From the NCBI GenBank assembly GCA_944386555.1, contig CALXBN010000016.1, forward strand, positions 1 to 64,000: a stretch of 64,000 nt of DNA, written 5' to 3'. This stretch comes from an uncultured Ruthenibacterium sp. Lineage in GTDB: Bacteria > Bacillota > Clostridia > Oscillospirales > Ruminococcaceae. Each line of letters begins with the position of its first letter. The first letter of the stretch is position 1. The position numbers were made by a program, and so were the translations under genes. Shown in pieces: positions 3,666-12,026 of this stretch. The notes under the pieces are model-generated. The model made no database searches. It was not told where the DNA came from and worked only from the letters and a program-made list of their open reading frames with translations.

Positions 3666-3704
3666 AAAAACAGGGGCGGCGCAGCCTGTGCTGCGCCGCC
3701 CCTG
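3666..3704 (-). terminator. Rho-independent terminator of the tandem SGNH gene
   Basis: Perfect 14-bp stem (3671-3684 with 3691-3704) and 6-base loop; on the minus strand it is followed by TTTTTG. It lies about 120 bases past the SGNH gene stop. Confidence 0.85.
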
Positions 3705-3822
3705 TTCAAGCTGTCGATGGATGAGCCCGGCGCCGGGCCTGAAAGGCGGCGGGAAAACCCGCTGCCGCCGGCCCTGGCGCCGACCCATGGGGGAGCTGCG
3801 GGTCAGCCGCAGATGCCGGAAA

Positions 3823-5622
3823 TCAAGCCAGGATCTCGTACAATTCGGCCTCGATGTACGGCCCCCACCATTGCAGATAGCCTTTCCGCGTGGGATGGAT
3901 GGCGTCGCTCATGTAGCTGCGCCACAGGTCGCCGCCGGTCTCCACGCCTTCATACATGACATCATTGTGCCACAGATCCAGGAAGTAGAACTGATCGCCC
4001 CACTTCTCCTCCAGCTGGTGGCATTTGTCGATCATATCCAGGTACAGATCGGCGCTCTGCCCGCCGGAATAAGTCATCTCATCCTGGAACTGGGTGCCGC
4101 CGATGACGAATACGGGCACATCCCAGGTGTCGCGGGCGTAGCTGATGATGGCTTCCAGCGAACCGATGGTGGTGCTTTCATCGTAGGTGCCCTGGTCAAA
4201 GCTGTCGGAGACCTCGCCGATTTCGCACTGGCCTTTGGAGTCGTTGGTGGAAAGCTGAACCACCACCAGGTCCAGGTCGGGAGTGTTCTCGGCATTGTAG
4301 TTATTGCGCAGGCGGTTGATGTAGCTGCTGTCGGCGCTGATGTCGCCGCCGGCGCCGCCGCCCACTTCACCGTCCACCGTGGCCAGGAATGTGCCGCCCT
4401 GTACCTCGATGACGGACTGGGTGCCGTCGATGGCGTCGATCCACTCGGCCGGCGAGGTGTTGCCGGCGCCGAAGCCCTGGAATACCGAGGAGCCCAGCCA
4501 CAGCAGCTTTTTGCCCTGGATGGGGCTGTCGGGGTTGGCGGCCTGGTTTTCAGGGTTGTACTGTTCGCTGTTGCCTTCGTTCTGCAGGCCCTTTACACTG
4601 ATCAGCTGCTGCACGGTGCTGCCGCCCACAACCACCAGGATGGCCAGCACGGCCACGACGATCCAGCTGACAACCTTTCGCACGGTGCGGCTGCTCTTCT
4701 GCTTGGCCACGTCTGCGTCGGTGACGGCGGGGCTGACGGCCTGGCGGGCGGGTACGCCCTTGCCGGCCAGCACGCCGGCCAAAGCGGCCTCAAAGACAGG
4801 CGTCCAGACCCGGTAGCCTTTCTTGGTGGGATGGATCTGGTCGTTCATGCAGGAATGCTTTTTGTTCTCCTTCTCGTTCACGGCCTTGTCATGCCACAAG
4901 TCGATCACCTGCACGTCCCACTTGGCGGCAATTTTGGGCATCACGTCCACCATGGCCTTGTAAGCGGGGGAGGCGTACTGCGGGTTGGTGTAGAACACCA
5001 CCGGGCAGTTCCAGGTCTGCTTGGCATATGCGATGATATACTCGATGGCGCCGCACACGGTTTTGGTGTCGAAACCGCTCAGATCTTTGCCTTCGGATAC
5101 GGAACCCAGAGGCACTTTTTTGGTGGCGTCGTTGGTGCTCAGCTGGCACACGAATACATCGCAGGGGGTATTTTTGTCCAGGGCTTTCAGGCGGGCAACA
5201 TAGCTTTTGCCGCCGTTGTCGGCCAGGGTGGTGCCGCTGACGGCTTCTTTCACGCACACCGCCCCGGTGCGCGCGGCGATCATGTCCGCAAAGCTCTTGC
5301 CGTAGGCGGCAAAGCCCTTGGTGACAGACGAGCCCAGGAAGATGAAATGCTTACCCTTCAGAGGGCTGTTCGGCACTTTGTCCATCTTGTCGGGGTTGTA
5401 TTTGGACAAGTTGCCCGAATTCAGCCAACCAAACAGACGGACCAGGAAAAGCAGTACAATGACGGCGATGACGATGACCGCCACGGTGGGGCCGTACATC
5501 ATCACGCCGCTGGTGCAGTATTCTTTGCACACCTGTTTGGATACGTTCATGGCCGAGGCAACAGCCGCGAAGATGGGATCCAGAACAGGCGAATAGAAAA
5601 TGGCACGCCAAAATTCCAGCAT
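3823..5622 (-). CDS. Membrane protein with two tandem SGNH/GDSL hydrolase domains
   Basis: 599 residues. Membrane segments near residues 45-65 and 317-337 each precede an SGNH hydrolase domain. Domain 1 shows GSS 97-99 (block I serine), N164 in QLSTNDA (block III) and D261-x-x-H264 in DQIHP (block V). Domain 2 repeats this with GSS 377-379, N460 and D573/H576 in DAIHP. Both domains contain W-x-x-P-V-V/F and DLWH, so this is an internal duplication of one gene; both catalytic sets are intact. SGNH proteins are esterases or O-acyltransferases, often acting on sugars or lipids at the cell surface. It has its own promoter and terminator and a GGAGG site before the ATG. A single-domain relative lies 1.3 kb away on the other strand. 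The substrate is unknown. Confidence 0.85.
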   Translation of the reverse strand: MLEFWRAIFYSPVLDPIFAAVASAMNVSKQVCKEYCTSGVMMYGPTVAVIVIAVIVLLFLVRLFGWLNSGNLSKYNPDKMDKVPNSPLKGKHFIFLGSSVTKGFAAYGKSFADMIAARTGAVCVKEAVSGTTLADNGGKSYVARLKALDKNTPCDVFVCQLSTNDATKKVPLGSVSEGKDLSGFDTKTVCGAIEYIIAYAKQTWNCPVVFYTNPQYASPAYKAMVDVMPKIAAKWDVQVIDLWHDKAVNEKENKKHSCMNDQIHPTKKGYRVWTPVFEAALAGVLAGKGVPARQAVSPAVTDADVAKQKSSRTVRKVVSWIVVAVLAILVVVGGSTVQQLISVKGLQNEGNSEQYNPENQAANPDSPIQGKKLLWLGSSVFQGFGAGNTSPAEWIDAIDGTQSVIEVQGGTFLATVDGEVGGGAGGDISADSSYINRLRNNYNAENTPDLDLVVVQLSTNDSKGQCEIGEVSDSFDQGTYDESTTIGSLEAIISYARDTWDVPVFVIGGTQFQDEMTYSGGQSADLYLDMIDKCHQLEEKWGDQFYFLDLWHNDVMYEGVETGGDLWRSYMSDAIHPTRKGYLQWWGPYIEAELYEILA

Positions 5623-5831
5623 AAATGTTCCTCCTTCTTAAAAAATCGGACAGGGGCGGCGCGGCGCCTTGCCGCGCCCGCATAAGTGCCGCTGCCGGAG
5701 CGCGCCCCATGGCAACAGAGGCGGTACGCCGGGCGGCAGGGCCTGCACAGGCGGCACAGCGGCCCATGCAGGCGGCGCGCCGGGCCGCGGGCAAAGCGGA
5801 ACGGCGCACCGGTGTCGGCCGGCCAAGCCGA

Positions 5832-5845
5832 CATTGATATCAATG
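5832..5845. promoter_or_regulatory. Palindromic operator candidate CATTGATATCAATG
   Basis: Perfect 14-bp palindrome just downstream of the -10 box of the SGNH promoter, where bound protein would block transcription start. The TetR repressor encoded next door is the obvious candidate, by position only. Confidence 0.5.
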
Positions 5846-5853
5846 CTGTTATT

Positions 5854-5882
5854 AGTTTATTATAGTTAGGTTGGATTGTCAA
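5854..5882 (-). promoter_or_regulatory. Promoter of the tandem SGNH gene
   Basis: TTGACA (5877-5882), 17-base spacer and TAAACT (5854-5859) on the minus strand. A consensus -35 box with a weaker -10 box. Confidence 0.65.
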
Positions 5883-6030
5883 TTAAGATTCGTCCATTTC
5901 GTATAAGTGCGCAAAAAATGGTGTGAATATTTGTGCACTTTGCGCAAAAACAACGGCAAAAGCGGGAAAGACACCCCGCCGCCGTGCCGGCCCGGCAGCG
6001 GGCAATGGGTGCGGGCTGCGCACCCTGGAC

Positions 6031-6070
6031 ACAAAAATAGCCCCCACACCGGCATATTCGGTGCGGGGGC
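6031..6070 (-). terminator. Rho-independent terminator of the tetR gene
   Basis: 12-bp stem with one G-U pair (6040-6051 with 6059-6070) and a 7-base loop; on the minus strand it runs into TATTTTTGTG. It begins 13 bases after the tetR stop. Confidence 0.85.
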
Positions 6071-6082
6071 TTTGCGAAGCGT

Positions 6083-6643
6083 TCAGTCCGTGGGAGGGAA
6101 GGCGCGGTCCACAGCGGCGGCCAAAAGCTGCTCCACCGCGTCACTGGGGGCAATGGCAGACTGCAGTACAGCGCTTTCCAAAAGGAACACCAGTTCATCA
6201 GCCATGCGGCGGGCAGCATCTTCCGCGCAGCCGCGGCGCTGCAGGCGTGCGGCCAGGGATTGGGCCAGCTCCAGGCGATGCGCCAGCACCAATTCACGGA
6301 TCTCCGTCATGGAAAGGCTCAGCGCATACAGCTGCAGCAGAAAGCGGCTGCGGCTGGCGTCGGCCAGCAGCTGATGCAGATGGGCGCGGCGTTCGGTGCC
6401 CTGGCGGATGCGCAGCACGTCCTCCAGCACATTGGCCACTTCCAGCAGGGCGTTGTCCGCCATCATGTGCAGGATTTCGTCCTTGTTGGTAAAGTAATGG
6501 TGTACCAGGCCGGTGGCGACGCCGGCCTCCTGGGCAATGTCCTTCACCGTGGTGGTTTGATATGATCCGCTGCGGATCATACAAGTCTGCAGCGCACGGC
6601 CGATCTCGATACGGCGCTGCTCCGACATGGACGGCCTGCCCAT
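6083..6643 (-). CDS. TetR-family transcriptional regulator
   Basis: 186 residues. The N-terminal third has the TetR helix-turn-helix (TTTVKDIAQEAGVATGLVHHY-F, about residues 28-50) followed by the usual NKDEILHMM helix; the C-terminal part is the all-helical ligand/dimer domain and is not assignable to a ligand. The ATG at 6643 is preferred over one 14 codons upstream because GGGAG lies 8 bases before it. It stands alone, with its own promoter and terminator, between the two SGNH genes that face away from each other, which suggests it controls one or both and senses an acyl compound or its product (inference). Confidence 0.85.
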   Translation of the reverse strand: MGRPSMSEQRRIEIGRALQTCMIRSGSYQTTTVKDIAQEAGVATGLVHHYFTNKDEILHMMADNALLEVANVLEDVLRIRQGTERRAHLHQLLADASRSRFLLQLYALSLSMTEIRELVLAHRLELAQSLAARLQRRGCAEDAARRMADELVFLLESAVLQSAIAPSDAVEQLLAAAVDRAFPPTD

Positions 6644-6726
6644 GCTAACACGCTCCCTTCCGGCGCGCGGCGGCGCGCCCTGCATTCCGGCACTGTCAGC
6701 AGGGCCGGAAATTCGTTTTGATTTTT

Positions 6727-6755
6727 ATTGTATCATATTTATTTTATATTGAAAA
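6727..6755 (-). promoter_or_regulatory. Promoter of the tetR gene
   Basis: TTTTCA (6750-6755), 17-base spacer and TACAAT (6727-6732) on the minus strand, in an AT-rich island. Confidence 0.55.
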
Positions 6756-6763
6756 GACTTTTC
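6751..6763. promoter_or_regulatory. Inverted repeat GAAAAG-A-CTTTTC over the tetR -35 box
   Basis: Perfect 6-1-6 inverted repeat overlapping the tetR -35 box; placement fits autorepression, but no relation to the palindrome at 5832-5845 is evident. Confidence 0.4.
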
Positions 6764-6903
6764 CGCTATTTTGTGCCCCGGACGGGCAGCCTTCCGGGAA
6801 ATGTCGGGCTATGTGCCCAAAACCGTGGCCTGGATTCCGTTCAAATTGCACAAAAATGCGCCCAGCCCGTTGACGTACAGAGCAAAACATGATTTACTGT
6901 AAC

Positions 6904-6932
6904 TTAGATAAATTGGTCAATCAAATTATAAC
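6904..6932 (+). promoter_or_regulatory. Promoter of the SGNH/acyl-ligase-reductase operon
   Basis: Weak -35 TTAGAT (6904-6909), 17-base spacer and TATAAC (6927-6932). The spacer contains the small palindrome ATTGGTCAAT, whose ATTG/CAAT arms resemble those of the palindrome before the tandem SGNH gene. Confidence 0.45.
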
Positions 6933-6970
6933 GGGCGCGGCCGGGCGGGCCGGGAAGGGAGGAGAATGCC

Positions 6971-7780
6971 GTGATATGGCTTTTGTGTCTGTTGGCCGGC
7001 GCGGCGGCGGTGGGGGCGGCGGTGTGGCTGCCGCTGCACCGGCCGTTTCTGCGGGGCAACCGCGCGCCGTACAGCCTGCGGCATGTCCGGCAGAACCCGG
7101 CCAGCCCGCTGCGGGGCAAGCGCATCTTTTTCCTGGGCTCTTCGGTGACTCAGGGCATGACCAGCCGCGGCCAGAGCTTTGTGGACGTGCTGGAGCGGGC
7201 GGACGGATGCCGGGTGATCAAGGCCGCCGTGCTGGCCTCCACCTTGGCGGACCGCGGCCCCCATTCTTATCTGAAACGTCTGCGCCGCCATCCGGCGGCT
7301 TCCCAGCCGATGGACTGCTTTGTATGCCAGCTGTCCACCAACGATGCCACCTTCCGCAGCCGCCTGGGAACGGTGAGCGATTCCTTCGACCCCGCCGCCT
7401 TCGACACCAGAACCGCCGCCGGGGGCATGGAGGCCATCATTGCTTATGCCCGTGAGACCTGGCACTGCCCGGTAGTGTTCCTCACAGGCACCCGGTATGA
7501 CAATCCGCGCTACCACAAGCTGGTGAACCTGTGCCTGGACATTGCGGAAAAGTGGCAGGCCGATGTGATTGACCTGTGGCACGACAGCACCATGAACGCC
7601 GTGGACCCGGCCGACTACCGGCTGTACATGGCTGACGGTGTGCACCCCACCCGGGCGGGCTATCTGCTGTGGTGGACGCCGGCCATCCGCCGGCGGCTGT
7701 GCCGCATCCTGGCGGGGCCCGCCGCCGGGGGGCTGCCGCATCTGCCAGGCGCCGGCGCGGCAGCCGATTCCCGTATGTAA
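6971..7780 (+). CDS. Membrane-anchored single-domain SGNH/GDSL hydrolase
   Basis: 269 residues from a GTG start with GGAGG 8 bases upstream. An N-terminal membrane segment (residues 1-22) is followed by one SGNH domain: G56-S57-S58-V-T (block I), QLSTNDA (block III Asn) and DGVHPTRAGY (block V Asp/His). It is clearly related to each half of the 599-residue protein at 3823-5622, with the same FLGSS, LSTND and DLWHD stretches. The acyl-ligase/reductase gene starts 33 bases after its stop, so the two are co-transcribed; this suggests the hydrolase acts on an ester or acyl group that the megaenzyme makes or uses (inference). Confidence 0.85.
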   Translation: MIWLLCLLAGAAAVGAAVWLPLHRPFLRGNRAPYSLRHVRQNPASPLRGKRIFFLGSSVTQGMTSRGQSFVDVLERADGCRVIKAAVLASTLADRGPHSYLKRLRRHPAASQPMDCFVCQLSTNDATFRSRLGTVSDSFDPAAFDTRTAAGGMEAIIAYARETWHCPVVFLTGTRYDNPRYHKLVNLCLDIAEKWQADVIDLWHDSTMNAVDPADYRLYMADGVHPTRAGYLLWWTPAIRRRLCRILAGPAAGGLPHLPGAGAAADSRM

Positions 7781-7813
7781 AGCCTGCTGAACACTGTGAA
7801 AGGAAGAGTGCAA

Positions 7814-10800
7814 TTGGCAAACCGAGCTGAACCCATTTTGGAAAAATTCGCCCGCGACGCCGCGGTGAACCCGGATCGTCCGCTGTATAACTTCCTGGAT
7901 TGCGAGCGCACGCCCTTCGGCCAGAAACCCGTCACCATCGGCCAGGCTTGGCAGCATGCCCGAGACTTGGCCGAAGCCCTGCGGGCCAAGGGTGCAAAGC
8001 CCGGGGACCGGGCCATCATCCTGTGTATGCAGGACGAGGGCACGGTGAACGCCGTGTGGGGCTGCATGATCGCCGGCGTGGTGTTTACCGTCATCCCGCC
8101 GCCCATCGACGCGGGCAAGCTGGCCCGGTTCATCTCGGTGCTGAAAAGCTGCAGGCCCAAGTTCCTCATCTCCAACGAAGGGCTGGAAAAGGGCAGCGGC
8201 ACCGACGTAAAGGGCGATCTGCTGCGGGGGGCCTTTTTAAACGTGGTGTCCCTGCGGCGTATCTACACCGATAAAATTCCCCCGGCCCCCAACCCGGCGC
8301 TCCCCATGCGCCACGGGGACGGGGATCTGGTGTACCTGCAGTACACCTCCGGCTCCACCAGCGCGCCCAAGGGTGTGATGGTGACCCATGGCAACCTGAT
8401 GGCCTGCATCGACCAGTGCCTGGAGCAGTTCGACTTCCAGCACACCCACAACAACCTGGCCAGCTGGGTGCCCTTCTACCACAACATTGGGCTGATTGTG
8501 GCCATCTTCCTGCCGGTGATCGCCAACGACGGTGTGTCCTACTTCATCCCCACCCTGCAGTTTTTGGCCAAGCCCACCGTCTGGCTGGACGTGCTCAGCG
8601 ATTTCAAGGTGAACATCACCGCCGCGCCAAACTCCGCCTACGAAGTGTGCACCCGCCTGGTGACGTCGGCCCAGGCCGCCCGATATGATCTGTCCCACAT
8701 GACCCACCTGATCAACGGCTCGGAATTTGTGGACGCCGCCACGGTGGACAAGTTCTGCCGGCTGTTTTCCATCAGCCCCAACGCCTTTGCCCCGGGCTAC
8801 GGCCTGTCGGAATGTGTGTGCGTGGCCACCGTGGCCAGCATGGATTACCAGGTGGCCCATGTGGAGGAGGAAGCCTATCGGGCCGGCCGCTTTGTGCCCG
8901 CGGCGGCGGGCGGCAAGGCCATTGTCAGTGTAGGACGGCCCGCAGGGGACATGCACATCCTGGCCGTGCGCCCGGACGGCACACCCTGCGCCGAGGGGGA
9001 GATCGGGGAAATTTACATCCAGGGCGCCAGCGTGTGCGCCGGTTACTGGCAGAATCCTGAGGAGACCCGGCGCTTTGAAGCTGCCGTGCCCGGCCATCCC
9101 GGCCGGTTTTACCGCACCGGCGACATGGGCGTGCTGCACGAGGGCCGGCTGTACCTCACCGGCCGCATCAAGGAAATGGTCATCATCGGCGGAAAGAATA
9201 TCTTCCCCAGCGACATCACCCTGATGCTGCACCAGCAGGGCGTGGCATTGCCCATGGATGCGGTGACGGTGTTTTCGGTGCGCAGGGACGGCGGCGAGCG
9301 GCCCATCCTGTGCGCCGAATGCCCGCCCCAGGCGGACTGCAAGGCCCTGGCCCTTCAGGTGAACCGCCTGACGGCGCGCCACTTCGGCTTCTCTTTTTAC
9401 GATGTGGTGTTTGTGCGCCCGGGTACTCTGCCGCGCACCGACAACCGCAAGGTGCAGACGCTGAAGGCCCGCGGACAGTACGAGCAGGGAAGCTTGGCTG
9501 TGGTATACCGCACGGCGGAGGGGCCCGGCGGGGCGGGGCGGGAAATGGATGCCGGTGCGGTGCAGCTGGCCCTGGCCCTGCCGGCCCACGCCAGCCCCGC
9601 CCAGGTGCAGCCGGTGATCGAGCGGATCTTCCGCAGCCTGCTGCCAGGGACGGACTTCGGCCCCCATGACAGTTTCCTGGCCCTGGGGGGCGATTCCCTG
9701 CGCATGATGGAGCTGGTGTGCGGCCTGGAGCAGGCCCTGGATGTGCACATTGACCTGCGCCAGGTGGCGGCGGACCCCACGGCGGCGGGCATTGCGGCCT
9801 ATATCAGCGCTCTGCTGAACGGCGGCGCGGCGGGTGCCGGCACGGATCTGCGGGCCCAGTGCCGCCTGGATGAGGATATCCGCCCCGCCGGCCAGCCTGC
9901 CCATCGGGCCGAGGATGCCAAGATCGTATTCCTCACCGGCGCCACGGGATTTCTGGGGGCATACCTGATCCGGGAGCTGATCCTCCGGCGGCGGGACAAG
10001 GGGCTGAAGATCTACTGCCATGTGCGGGCCAAAACGCCCGCGGAAGGCATGGAGCGCCTGGCGGCCAATTTGCGGCGCTTTGCCCTGTGGCAGGAGGATT
10101 ACCGCCCCTTCCTGGTGGCGGTGCCCGGCGATTTGACCCAGCCCCGCCTGGGCATGTGCGATGCAGACTGGCAGGAGGTGGCCCGGCAGGCCCAGCTGGT
10201 GATCCACAACGGGGCGGTGCTGAACTTCATCCTTCCCTACAGCCAGCTGAAGGCCGCCAACGTGGACGGGACCGCCGAGGCCCTGCGCCTGGCCTGCACG
10301 GGCCGTCCCAAGTATTTCCATTACATCTCCAGCTACAGCGTATATGACAACCCCAGCCATTTCGGAAAAACCGTGTCGGAGGACGACCCCCTGGACAGCC
10401 CCGACGGCTACTTTTTGGGCTATTCCGAGACCAAGTGGGCGGCCGAACACCTGGTGGCCATTGCCCGCCGGCGGGGCCTGCAGGCAGCGGTGTACCGCCC
10501 GGGGGATATCACCGGTGCGCCGGACACGGGCATCTGGAAGCTGGAGGACCTGATCAGCCGTTCCCTGGTGGGATGTGTGCAGCTGGGCGCTGCGCCCGAC
10601 ATCGAGGTGAACCTGCATCTGACGCCGGTGGATTTTGTGGCCAGGGCCATTGTGCACATCGCGTTCCAAAGCGCCGCAGCAGGCCATGGGTTCAACCTGC
10701 TGAACAAGCATCTGCTGGCGGTGGGGCAGATCAGTGCCCTGCTGCGCAGGGCCGGCTACCGGGTGCAGACAGTGCCCTATGAGGAGTGGTGTGCCCGCCT

Positions 10801-11065
10801 GACGGCCTGCGCGCCCGAGGAAAACGTGCTGCGGGTGCTGTCCTGCTTGTTTACGGCGCCCCAGGCCGCGGGAGAAAGCCTGGTGGAGCGCTTCGGCGCA
10901 CGGCAGGCCCGTTTTGATACCGCTTGGGCCGACCGCCTGCTGGCTGGCAGCGGCATTGCCTGCCCGCCTGTGAGTGTCTCGCTGCTGCGCACCTACCTGC
11001 GCCATTTCCAGGCCGAGGGCCAGCTGCCCCGTCCGGGCCTGCGGGCCCGGCTGCTGGGGCGCTGA
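7814..11065 (+). CDS. Acyl-AMP ligase / acyl carrier / thioester reductase megaenzyme
   Basis: 1083 residues in three modules. Residues 1-570: ANL-superfamily adenylating domain with YLQYTSGSTSAPKG and WVPFYHNIGLI; the latter, with the PPPID loop, resembles fatty-acyl-AMP ligases more than amino-acid adenylation domains. Residues about 590-670: carrier domain with FLALGGDSLRMMEL, phosphopantetheine attachment at S628. Residues about 700-1083: NADP-dependent extended-SDR thioester reductase with VFLTGATGFLG (G709) and Y870-x-x-x-K874. The expected chemistry is activation of a carboxylic (probably fatty) acid, transfer to the carrier arm and reductive release as aldehyde or alcohol. No condensation, ketosynthase or thioesterase domain is present. 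A TTG start (7814) 7 bases after AGGAAG is preferred to an in-frame GTG at 7796. It carries its own terminator. Acyl substrate and product are unknown. Confidence 0.88.
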   Translation: MANRAEPILEKFARDAAVNPDRPLYNFLDCERTPFGQKPVTIGQAWQHARDLAEALRAKGAKPGDRAIILCMQDEGTVNAVWGCMIAGVVFTVIPPPIDAGKLARFISVLKSCRPKFLISNEGLEKGSGTDVKGDLLRGAFLNVVSLRRIYTDKIPPAPNPALPMRHGDGDLVYLQYTSGSTSAPKGVMVTHGNLMACIDQCLEQFDFQHTHNNLASWVPFYHNIGLIVAIFLPVIANDGVSYFIPTLQFLAKPTVWLDVLSDFKVNITAAPNSAYEVCTRLVTSAQAARYDLSHMTHLINGSEFVDAATVDKFCRLFSISPNAFAPGYGLSECVCVATVASMDYQVAHVEEEAYRAGRFVPAAAGGKAIVSVGRPAGDMHILAVRPDGTPCAEGEIGEIYIQGASVCAGYWQNPEETRRFEAAVPGHPGRFYRTGDMGVLHEGRLYLTGRIKEMVIIGGKNIFPSDITLMLHQQGVALPMDAVTVFSVRRDGGERPILCAECPPQADCKALALQVNRLTARHFGFSFYDVVFVRPGTLPRTDNRKVQTLKARGQYEQGSLAVVYRTAEGPGGAGREMDAGAVQLALALPAHASPAQVQPVIERIFRSLLPGTDFGPHDSFLALGGDSLRMMELVCGLEQALDVHIDLRQVAADPTAAGIAAYISALLNGGAAGAGTDLRAQCRLDEDIRPAGQPAHRAEDAKIVFLTGATGFLGAYLIRELILRRRDKGLKIYCHVRAKTPAEGMERLAANLRRFALWQEDYRPFLVAVPGDLTQPRLGMCDADWQEVARQAQLVIHNGAVLNFILPYSQLKAANVDGTAEALRLACTGRPKYFHYISSYSVYDNPSHFGKTVSEDDPLDSPDGYFLGYSETKWAAEHLVAIARRRGLQAAVYRPGDITGAPDTGIWKLEDLISRSLVGCVQLGAAPDIEVNLHLTPVDFVARAIVHIAFQSAAAGHGFNLLNKHLLAVGQISALLRRAGYRVQTVPYEEWCARLTACAPEENVLRVLSCLFTAPQAAGESLVERFGARQARFDTAWADRLLAGSGIACPPVSVSLLRTYLRHFQAEGQLPRPGLRARLLGR

Positions 11066-11170: not shown

Positions 11171-11920
11171 TCACGCGGTCTTGTGGGCCTTTTTGTCCAG
11201 GCGCATGCGGTCGGCAATCATGGCAATGAACTCGCTGTTGGTGGGCTTGCCCCGCAGATTGTGGATGGTATAGCCAAAGTAGCTGTTCAGGGTGTCCACG
11301 TCGCCCCGGTCCCAGGCCACCTCAATGGCGTGGCGGATGGCCCGCTCCACCCGGCTTGCGGTGGTGCCGTTGCGCTTGGCAATCTCCGGATACAGGCGCT
11401 TGGTGACGCTGTTGATGTACTCGCCGTCGGCCATGGTCATCAAAATGGCGTCCCGCAGGAACTGGTAGCCTTTGATATGGGCCGGCACGCCGATCTGATG
11501 CAGGATCTCGGTGACGGCGCATTCGTCATTCACCGCCGGCGCGCTGCGCCCCGCGGGACGGGCGGCGGCCACCACCCGGGAGGCCAGCACTTCAGCGTCA
11601 AAGGGCTTGAGGAAGTAGAAGGCAAAGCCGCTGGACAGCATTTCGCCCACCAGGCGGTCGTCGTCGAAGCTGCCGGTGACGAAGAATACGGGGCGCAGTC
11701 CCTGTTCATCGCAGCGCTGCTTGACGCTGATGGCGTCCAGGCCGGGCATGAAGGCGTCCAGCAGTACCGCGTCGGGCTTTTGACGGGCAATGGCCTCCAG
11801 GGCCTGGCGGCCGTCCTTTTCGCACACGGCCACCGCCGCCCCCTGGGCCGTCAGGGCCTGGCTGCAGGCCCGGGTCACGCCGGCGCCCAAATCCGTCATT
11901 AAAAACTTTACCTGTTCCAT
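11171..11920 (-). CDS. spo0A: Spo0A, master regulator of sporulation
   Basis: 249 residues: an N-terminal receiver and the conserved Spo0A C-terminal DNA-binding domain ([20 protein letters not shown] and [14 protein letters not shown] are diagnostic). The receiver keeps D10, phospho-acceptor D55 (LLDAFMPG), T82 and K105, but the usual second acidic residue of the metal pocket is a threonine (T9-D10). An open frame extends 29 codons upstream; the ATG at 11920 has GGAGGATT 7 bases ahead and gives the normal length. The upstream neighbour is spoIVB, the classical synteny of spore formers. Confidence 0.96.
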
Positions 11921-11989
11921 TTCAGAATCCTCCGTTTCTGTTCCTGCGCCCCGTGCAGCATCGGCCCGGAGCGGTTCGATCTGGCAATA

Positions 11990-12026
11990 ATTACCATCTG
12001 CTTCCAAATATTACCACATATTACCA
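11990..12026 (-). repeat. Three phased ATTACCA repeats at the spo0A promoter
   Basis: Plus-strand ATTACCA occurs at 11990-11996, 12010-12016 and 12020-12026, with start-to-start distances of 20 and 10 bases, so all copies face the same side of the helix. One copy overlaps the -10 box of the promoter proposed at 12008-12036. A direct-repeat binding site for a regulator is likely; its identity is unknown. Confidence 0.6.

Follow-up and report, generated by a model that had tools for sequence, protein, structure and literature searches.

Gene organization of the locus

We analyzed a 64,000-nucleotide stretch of contig C16 (the window), which comes from a 2.2-Mb draft genome in 63 contigs (G000). 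Pfam searches and an open reading frame check place four genes between positions 3823 and 11065, as a prior reading of the letters alone (the sequence-only reading) had laid them out: they encode a protein with two SGNH domains (dSGNH), a TetR-family regulator, a protein with one SGNH domain (sSGNH) and an enzyme that combines a fatty-acyl-AMP ligase, an ACP and a thioester reductase (mega). The locus has the following features.

3823-5622 (-): dSGNH, two SGNH/GDSL hydrolase domains with one transmembrane helix between them (599 aa; PF13472 twice)
3826-4575 (-): SGNH2 domain of dSGNH, residues ~350-599, predicted on the extracytoplasmic face (catalytic residues, 31 rows)
4618-4674 (-): second transmembrane helix of dSGNH, residues ~317-335 (Lys/Arg excess on its N-terminal side)
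4753-5415 (-): SGNH1 domain of dSGNH, residues ~70-290, predicted on the cytoplasmic face (catalytic residues, 31 rows)
~5836-5886 (+): operator-like site with core at 5871-5882, 212 bases ahead of where dSGNH starts (model R1; site outside training)
6083-6685 (-): TetR-family regulator (PF00440; relatives adjoin the set in L062 (47%) and L064 (56%))
6869-6934 (+): promoter (TTGACG, 17-base spacer, TTTACT) and operator core TTGGTCAATCAA at 6913-6924, for sSGNH-mega
6971-7780 (+): sSGNH, one SGNH hydrolase domain after an N-terminal membrane helix (PF13472)
7814-11065 (+): mega, fatty-acyl-AMP ligase / acyl carrier protein / thioester reductase (1083 aa)
7865-9505 (+): FAAL-type adenylation domain of mega, residues 18-564 (best solved relatives are FAALs; NCBIfam fatty-acid--AMP ligase models)
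9611-9829 (+): acyl carrier protein domain of mega, phosphopantetheine Ser628 (PF00550; Ser628 in 37/37 rows)
9920-11047 (+): thioester reductase domain of mega, residues 703-1078, with Ser842, Tyr870, Lys874 and Gly897 (TIGR01746; MxaA)

The sSGNH gene stops at 7780 and mega starts with a TTG codon at 7814, after AAGGAAG, which reproduces the 33-base gap reported earlier; the longest open reading frame for mega would begin at 7796. The regulator has a TetR_N match (Pfam, E = 1.4e-10), and its true start is probably at 6643, because the proteins of its relatives begin there. A 665-aa open frame (3688-5685, +) runs antisense through dSGNH, and related antisense frames lie opposite dSGNH in L018 and L062; such frames are what GC-rich codon use would give.

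Among the neighbors chosen for Pfam searches, a sensor kinase and an AraC-type response regulator flank the set on the left, and Spo0A (11171-12007) and SpoIVB on the right. Spo0A is kept in four congener regions (L078-L081), three of them with SpoIVB and one (L080) also with a P-type ATPase; the four-gene set was seen in none of the four, and neither mega nor dSGNH was found in 10 congeners. The comparison suggests that the set may have been gained beside spo0A. A link between the set and Spo0A was considered and set aside, since congeners have Spo0A without the set and other loci of the set do not lie by Spo0A (BLAST). At L064, a 122-aa stand-alone Spo0A_C DNA-binding protein (11462-11830, -) directly follows mega, at the place where the window has full-length Spo0A. 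Across the genus, Spo0A (E <= 1e-60) was found in 8 of 11 genomes. The three others are G003, G004 and G009, and a completeness of 95-97% is listed for two of them; sporulation may be eroding in this genus.

A FAAL-type ligase joined to a carrier protein and a thioester reductase

The mega protein matches the Pfam families AMP-binding (E = 8.2e-51), PP-binding (7.4e-11) and NAD_binding_4 (1.7e-64). Five Pfam families are listed for it at E <= 0.001, and no condensation, ketosynthase or thioesterase family is among them, in agreement with the earlier remark that condensation and ketosynthase domains are absent; an acyltransferase domain is not among the listed families either. We aligned 37 rows: the window's protein, that of L065, and 35 homologues out of the 120 listed. 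The catalytic motifs of ligase, carrier and reductase are complete in mega and kept across the alignment, with Ser842, Tyr870, Lys874 and Gly897 of the reductase present in every row. Five homologues of about 50% identity (P0044, P0048, P0056, P0062 and P0065) bear the names of MAG proteins from Bathyarchaeota or Nitrososphaerota, and may be either archaeal or misbinned.

The best PDB matches of the ligase are FAAL-type, scoring from 253 to 164 bits (7r7f at 253 bits, 3kxw, FadD32, FadD23 and 3pbk), and the CoA ligase FadD13 lies far under them at 63 bits. NCBIfam FAAL models score mega at 202-290 bits, each under its own full-length cut-off. Residues 336-376, which we take to be the limits of the FAAL-specific insertion in mega, align collinearly with 7r7f, 3kxw and 5d6j without a large gap, and mega therefore appears to carry this insertion. 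PMC8460268 describes the insertion as specific to FAALs and places it in their N-terminal domain. On these matches, the mega ligase is classed as FAAL type and not as an amino-acid domain, so the amino-acid specificity that would have counted against the sequence-only reading is not indicated.

The reductase exceeds the curated threshold of TIGR01746 (311.2 bits against a cut-off of 213.35), and its best match is MxaA, aligned end to end at 286.9 bits; MxcG is the best NCBIfam model for the whole protein. The score against the NCBIfam CAR equivalog NF041592 is 190.2 bits, far below the cut-off of 1300. In the alignment with the reductase 5msc, Gly897 takes the position of Asp984; we take 5msc to be the Nocardia CAR because this residue number fits the NiCAR D984 named in PMC5826065. 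According to the same paper, fungal CAR has Gly at this position, and the fungal CAR reductase domain is described as yielding alcohols (PMC10168641). Gly897 is nevertheless no proof of an alcohol product, since 8v1x, the second-best solved match, has Asp at this position and aldehyde reduction is described for a bacterial (mycobacterial) CAR as well (PMC10168641). The myxalamid and myxochelin reductases are classed as alcohol-forming in PMC2835699. By sequence, the mega reductase resembles the alcohol-forming MxaA, and its product may be an alcohol.

Predicted topology and fold of the SGNH proteins

Pfam finds two Lipase_GDSL_2 stretches in dSGNH (E = 8.4e-27) and one in sSGNH (E = 1.3e-12), with PF13472 scores of 95.2 and 49 bits over a cut-off of 32.9. 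Beyond GDSL families, the Pfam scan of dSGNH listed just a sub-threshold DUF459, and no AT3, MBOAT or other channel domain. We aligned dSGNH in 31 rows (the window and 30 of 120 listed homologues) and sSGNH in 28 (the window and 27 of the listed matches). The catalytic Ser, Asn and His are present in all rows for each domain; the Asp is present in 30/31 rows for SGNH1, 26/31 for SGNH2 and 23/28 for sSGNH. The sSGNH protein is 46% identical to SGNH1 and 36% identical to SGNH2.

The AlphaFold model of dSGNH (mean pLDDT 90.7) has long helices at residues 28-62 and 301-343; the sSGNH model has a mean pLDDT of 91.6. By hydropathy, every one of the 31 rows has a single membrane helix between the two dSGNH domains, and none has another within or after the domains. 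Because a single helix separates them, the two domains should lie on opposite membrane faces whichever way the helix runs. Their orientation is predicted from the charges around the helices: Lys and Arg are more common on the N-terminal than on the C-terminal side of the interdomain helix in 31/31 rows, and around the first helix the excess is on the C-terminal side in 21 rows, tied in 9 and reversed in 1. Therefore, dSGNH is predicted to place one domain at each membrane face, with SGNH1 in the cytoplasm and SGNH2 outside. The charge bias of sSGNH points to the cytoplasm in 16 of 28 rows, is tied in 5 and points to the outside in 7, and we infer that sSGNH faces the cytoplasm.

The nearest solved folds of the SGNH models are 7bxd and 3dc7, followed by mixed esterases (Foldseek, VIA-align), and the fold is as close to acetylxylan and sialate esterases as it is to TesA. 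The structural neighbors of sSGNH are mostly hydrolases, with some acyltransferases among them (8zbc and the OatA and PatB domains). A substrate call from structure was set aside, as acetyl-glycan, aryl, lysophospholipid and thioester enzymes are tied below 7bxd and 3dc7 in both searches. More distant SGNH relatives are fused with carbohydrate-binding and transporter families. Two SGNH relatives (P0221 and P0225) are fused with PF01554 and PF03023, presumably MatE and MurJ-type transporters; these fusions are a possible hint at a lipid-linked SGNH substrate.

A common promoter-operator element

The same element precedes sSGNH in the window, L062, L064 and L018, and it also precedes the unlinked dSGNH in L068 of genome G100. 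It consists of a TTGAC box, 17 bases, TTTACT (TATAAT in L062) and then TTGGNYRRYCRA, in an AT-rich setting. We built a sequence model from five sites and searched it in eight genomes. The four sites that lie in searched genomes have E-values of 1e-12 to 1e-17, all of them being training sites. In the window's genome, the single other match at E <= 5 is the weak site at ~5836-5886 (E = 0.196 genome-wide; E = 0.016 when the search is limited to a set of loci). A model built without the L068 site recovers that site with an E-value of 8.7e-12 in 235,613 bases. The best E-values in cluster-free genomes are 0.026 (G001), 2.5 (G005) and 0.003 (G232), and in mega-positive, SGNH-free genomes they are 0.22 (G117) and 0.15 (G722). 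The operator core TTGGNYRRYCAA alone, with one mismatch allowed, shows no enrichment in the window, where it has 8 matches against 15.3 expected; discrimination comes only from the longer promoter-operator model, and not from the short core.

On these matches, the sSGNH-mega and dSGNH transcription units are assigned to a common promoter-operator and form a predicted single regulon. Since the TetR gene lies divergent to the set in the window, L062 and L064, we infer that TetR is the protein that binds the operator.

Distribution and gene order

Of the 297 sampled family genomes, four carry full-length mega (E <= 1e-40), and these represent four genera. At E <= 1e-150, the window's own genome is the only match among 394 order genomes, and 391 class genomes give two, the window's own and a 39% relative. 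The dSGNH protein (E <= 1e-80) occurs in 3 of the 297 family genomes, all mega-positive, and thus in 3/4 mega-positive and 0/293 mega-negative genomes; the probability of this co-occurrence by chance is 4/4,322,340, or ~1e-6, if genomes are independent. All four genes are present in three genomes (the window's, G284 and G100), and a contig named Angelakisella (L018) has both SGNH genes and mega. Outside the window, gene order is as follows.

L062 (G284): TetR, then divergent sSGNH-dSGNH-mega
L064 (G100): TetR, then divergent sSGNH-mega; dSGNH unlinked, on another contig (L068)
L018 (Angelakisella MAG): sSGNH-dSGNH-mega; no TetR found on the contig
L063 (G117), L019, L069 (G722): mega without SGNH or TetR matches; mega 59%, 54% and 37% identical

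The set thus recurs in other genera with proteins that are 43-70% identical. This recurrence, together with the common promoter-operator, takes the set beyond chance, and the earlier claim of one conserved system is borne out by it, by the restriction of dSGNH to mega-positive family genomes and by the element common to both units. An SGNH gene adjoins 4 of the 7 full-length mega loci (the window, L062, L064 and L018), so orthologues of mega do lie near SGNH genes, as that claim implied. The operator is absent at the three mega loci without SGNH neighbors (L063, L019 and L069), and no SGNH match was found at 42 other mega-relative loci (L020-L061), mostly partial or distant relatives. Among the matches listed, at least six mega clusters besides the window's equal an SGNH cluster in longest-contig size (6633, 7630, 30497, 52020, 5380 and 16227), and one further pair (5754) is weak, with dSGNH at 29%; equal sizes may, indirectly, point to mega-SGNH linkage.

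Upstream of the unlinked dSGNH in L068 lie a glycosyltransferase and a polysaccharide deacetylase. Directly after this intact gene, whose protein is 43% identical, comes a remnant of a second dSGNH C-terminus (7056-7223) that is 80% identical to the window's protein, a trace of exchange or duplication. A plasmid or viral origin of the set was rejected because neither search revealed a mobile copy: tblastn against plasmids gave 135 records, all below 60% identity and three covering 80% or more of mega, and a scan of viral contigs found no relative.

Proposed function

We propose, with a probability of roughly 0.4, that the set is a TetR-run module in which SGNH hydrolases free an acyl chain from an ester and the FAAL-ACP-reductase enzyme makes a primary alcohol. 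The membrane-anchored SGNH domains would release (or edit off) an acyl group as a free acid at the membrane. The FAAL would convert this acid to acyl-AMP and then load the ACP, and the MxaA-like reductase would release the alcohol via the aldehyde, using NADPH. TetR would be a repressor, released by an acyl ligand, that gates the whole set. At L063, L019 and L069, the SGNH proteins would be dispensable for the role of mega, because mega stands there without SGNH neighbors or operator. Counting against this acyl-ester-to-alcohol reading are the unlinked dSGNH in G100 and an SGNH fold that is equally like glycan deacetylases. The two close and one distant mega loci without SGNH neighbors, the fusions of distant SGNH relatives, the seven sSGNH rows with an outward charge bias, the Asp of 8v1x at the Gly897 position and the unenriched short operator core weigh the same way.

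The SGNH proteins could instead act after mega, as acyltransferases that join its fatty alcohol to an acyl group and so make a wax or surface ester; dSGNH would move product or acyl groups from one membrane face to the other. One predicted SGNH domain per membrane face and the acyltransferases among the structural neighbors of sSGNH (8zbc, OatA and PatB domains) agree with this order, and AT3-SGNH and MBOAT-SGNH systems are known to carry acyl groups across membranes. However, hydrolases dominate the listed structural neighbors, Pfam finds no AT3, MBOAT or other channel domain in dSGNH, and a known acyl donor is lacking, which makes this order unlikely. It is also doubtful that the SGNH proteins deacetylate glycans or the cell wall and have no more than a regulator in common with mega, which alone would make a small signal or volatile. 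In favor of this reading, esterases of the acetylxylan, sialate and CE2 types are among the SGNH structural neighbors, distant relatives carry carbohydrate-binding families, glycan genes lie upstream of dSGNH in L068, and mega can occur without SGNH. However, sSGNH and mega form one unit at four loci and dSGNH is limited to mega-positive genomes of the family sample (3/4; 0/293), and these two facts call for a biochemical link.

The sequence-only reading had also offered an ether lipid as the destination, and this option is weakened, while its view of one acyl-processing system stands; that reading is thus partly supported. In the ether-lipid option, mega would supply the synthesis of alkyl ether lipids with a fatty alcohol or aldehyde, and the trimming of phospholipids would fall to the SGNH enzymes. 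The Myxococcus protein ElbD joins reductase, ligase, ACP and acyltransferase domains and is required for ether lipids (PMC9131029), but mega is without the acyltransferase domain and its domain order differs. A PlsA-like DUF2229 protein is present in 6/6 genomes tested, with and without mega, and consequently the set is not needed for the PlsA route; a plasmalogen synthase reading is weakened by the same result. Among the chosen neighbors scanned, no ether-forming gene was recognized beside the set. Overall, we regard ether-lipid supply as quite improbable. A bolder reading, a two-faced SGNH relay, is a long shot: dSGNH at both faces, with sSGNH, would couple cytoplasmic fatty-chain reduction to the making or breaking of esters at the outer face, yielding in gut Clostridia a self-contained and repressor-gated route to a surface wax-like ester or a secreted fatty alcohol.

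The domain families are known, and together they form a real and rare co-regulated module whose function is predicted. In the literature searched, largely outside subscription journals, no title or abstract opening concerns this gene set, and no description of the architecture was found. If the acyl-ester-to-alcohol reading holds, gut Clostridia possess a route from ester-bound fatty chains to fatty alcohols that is switchable, CoA-free and horizontally patchy, and SGNH active sites on both faces of one membrane protein would be uncommon among esterases. With its defined promoter-operator and closed gene set, the module is open to direct test.

Comparison with known systems

AT3-SGNH and MBOAT-SGNH acyltransferases (OatA, PatA/PatB) likewise have an SGNH domain in a membrane protein or protein pair and act on acyl groups, but dSGNH is without AT3 or MBOAT and its two SGNH domains are predicted on opposite faces. 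The SGNH proteins are membrane-anchored, unlike TesA (thioesterase I), which is tied in Z with many SGNH esterases. ElbD of Myxococcus xanthus, a protein of lipid metabolism, resembles mega in combining a ligase, an ACP and a reductase within a single chain; mega differs from it by the missing acyltransferase domain, another domain order, and SGNH and TetR partners. CAR shares with mega the domain order of adenylation, carrier and reductase, whereas mega has a FAAL-type ligase, scores 190 bits against an NCBIfam CAR cut-off of 1300, and has Gly in place of Asp984 of 5msc. The reductase domains of MxaA and MxcG (myxalamid, myxochelin) terminate NRPS or PKS lines, in contrast to mega, a lone FAAL-ACP predicted to load a free acid with no condensing domain listed; the mega reductase itself aligns end to end with MxaA (287 bits) and shares the SDR Ser, Tyr and Lys.
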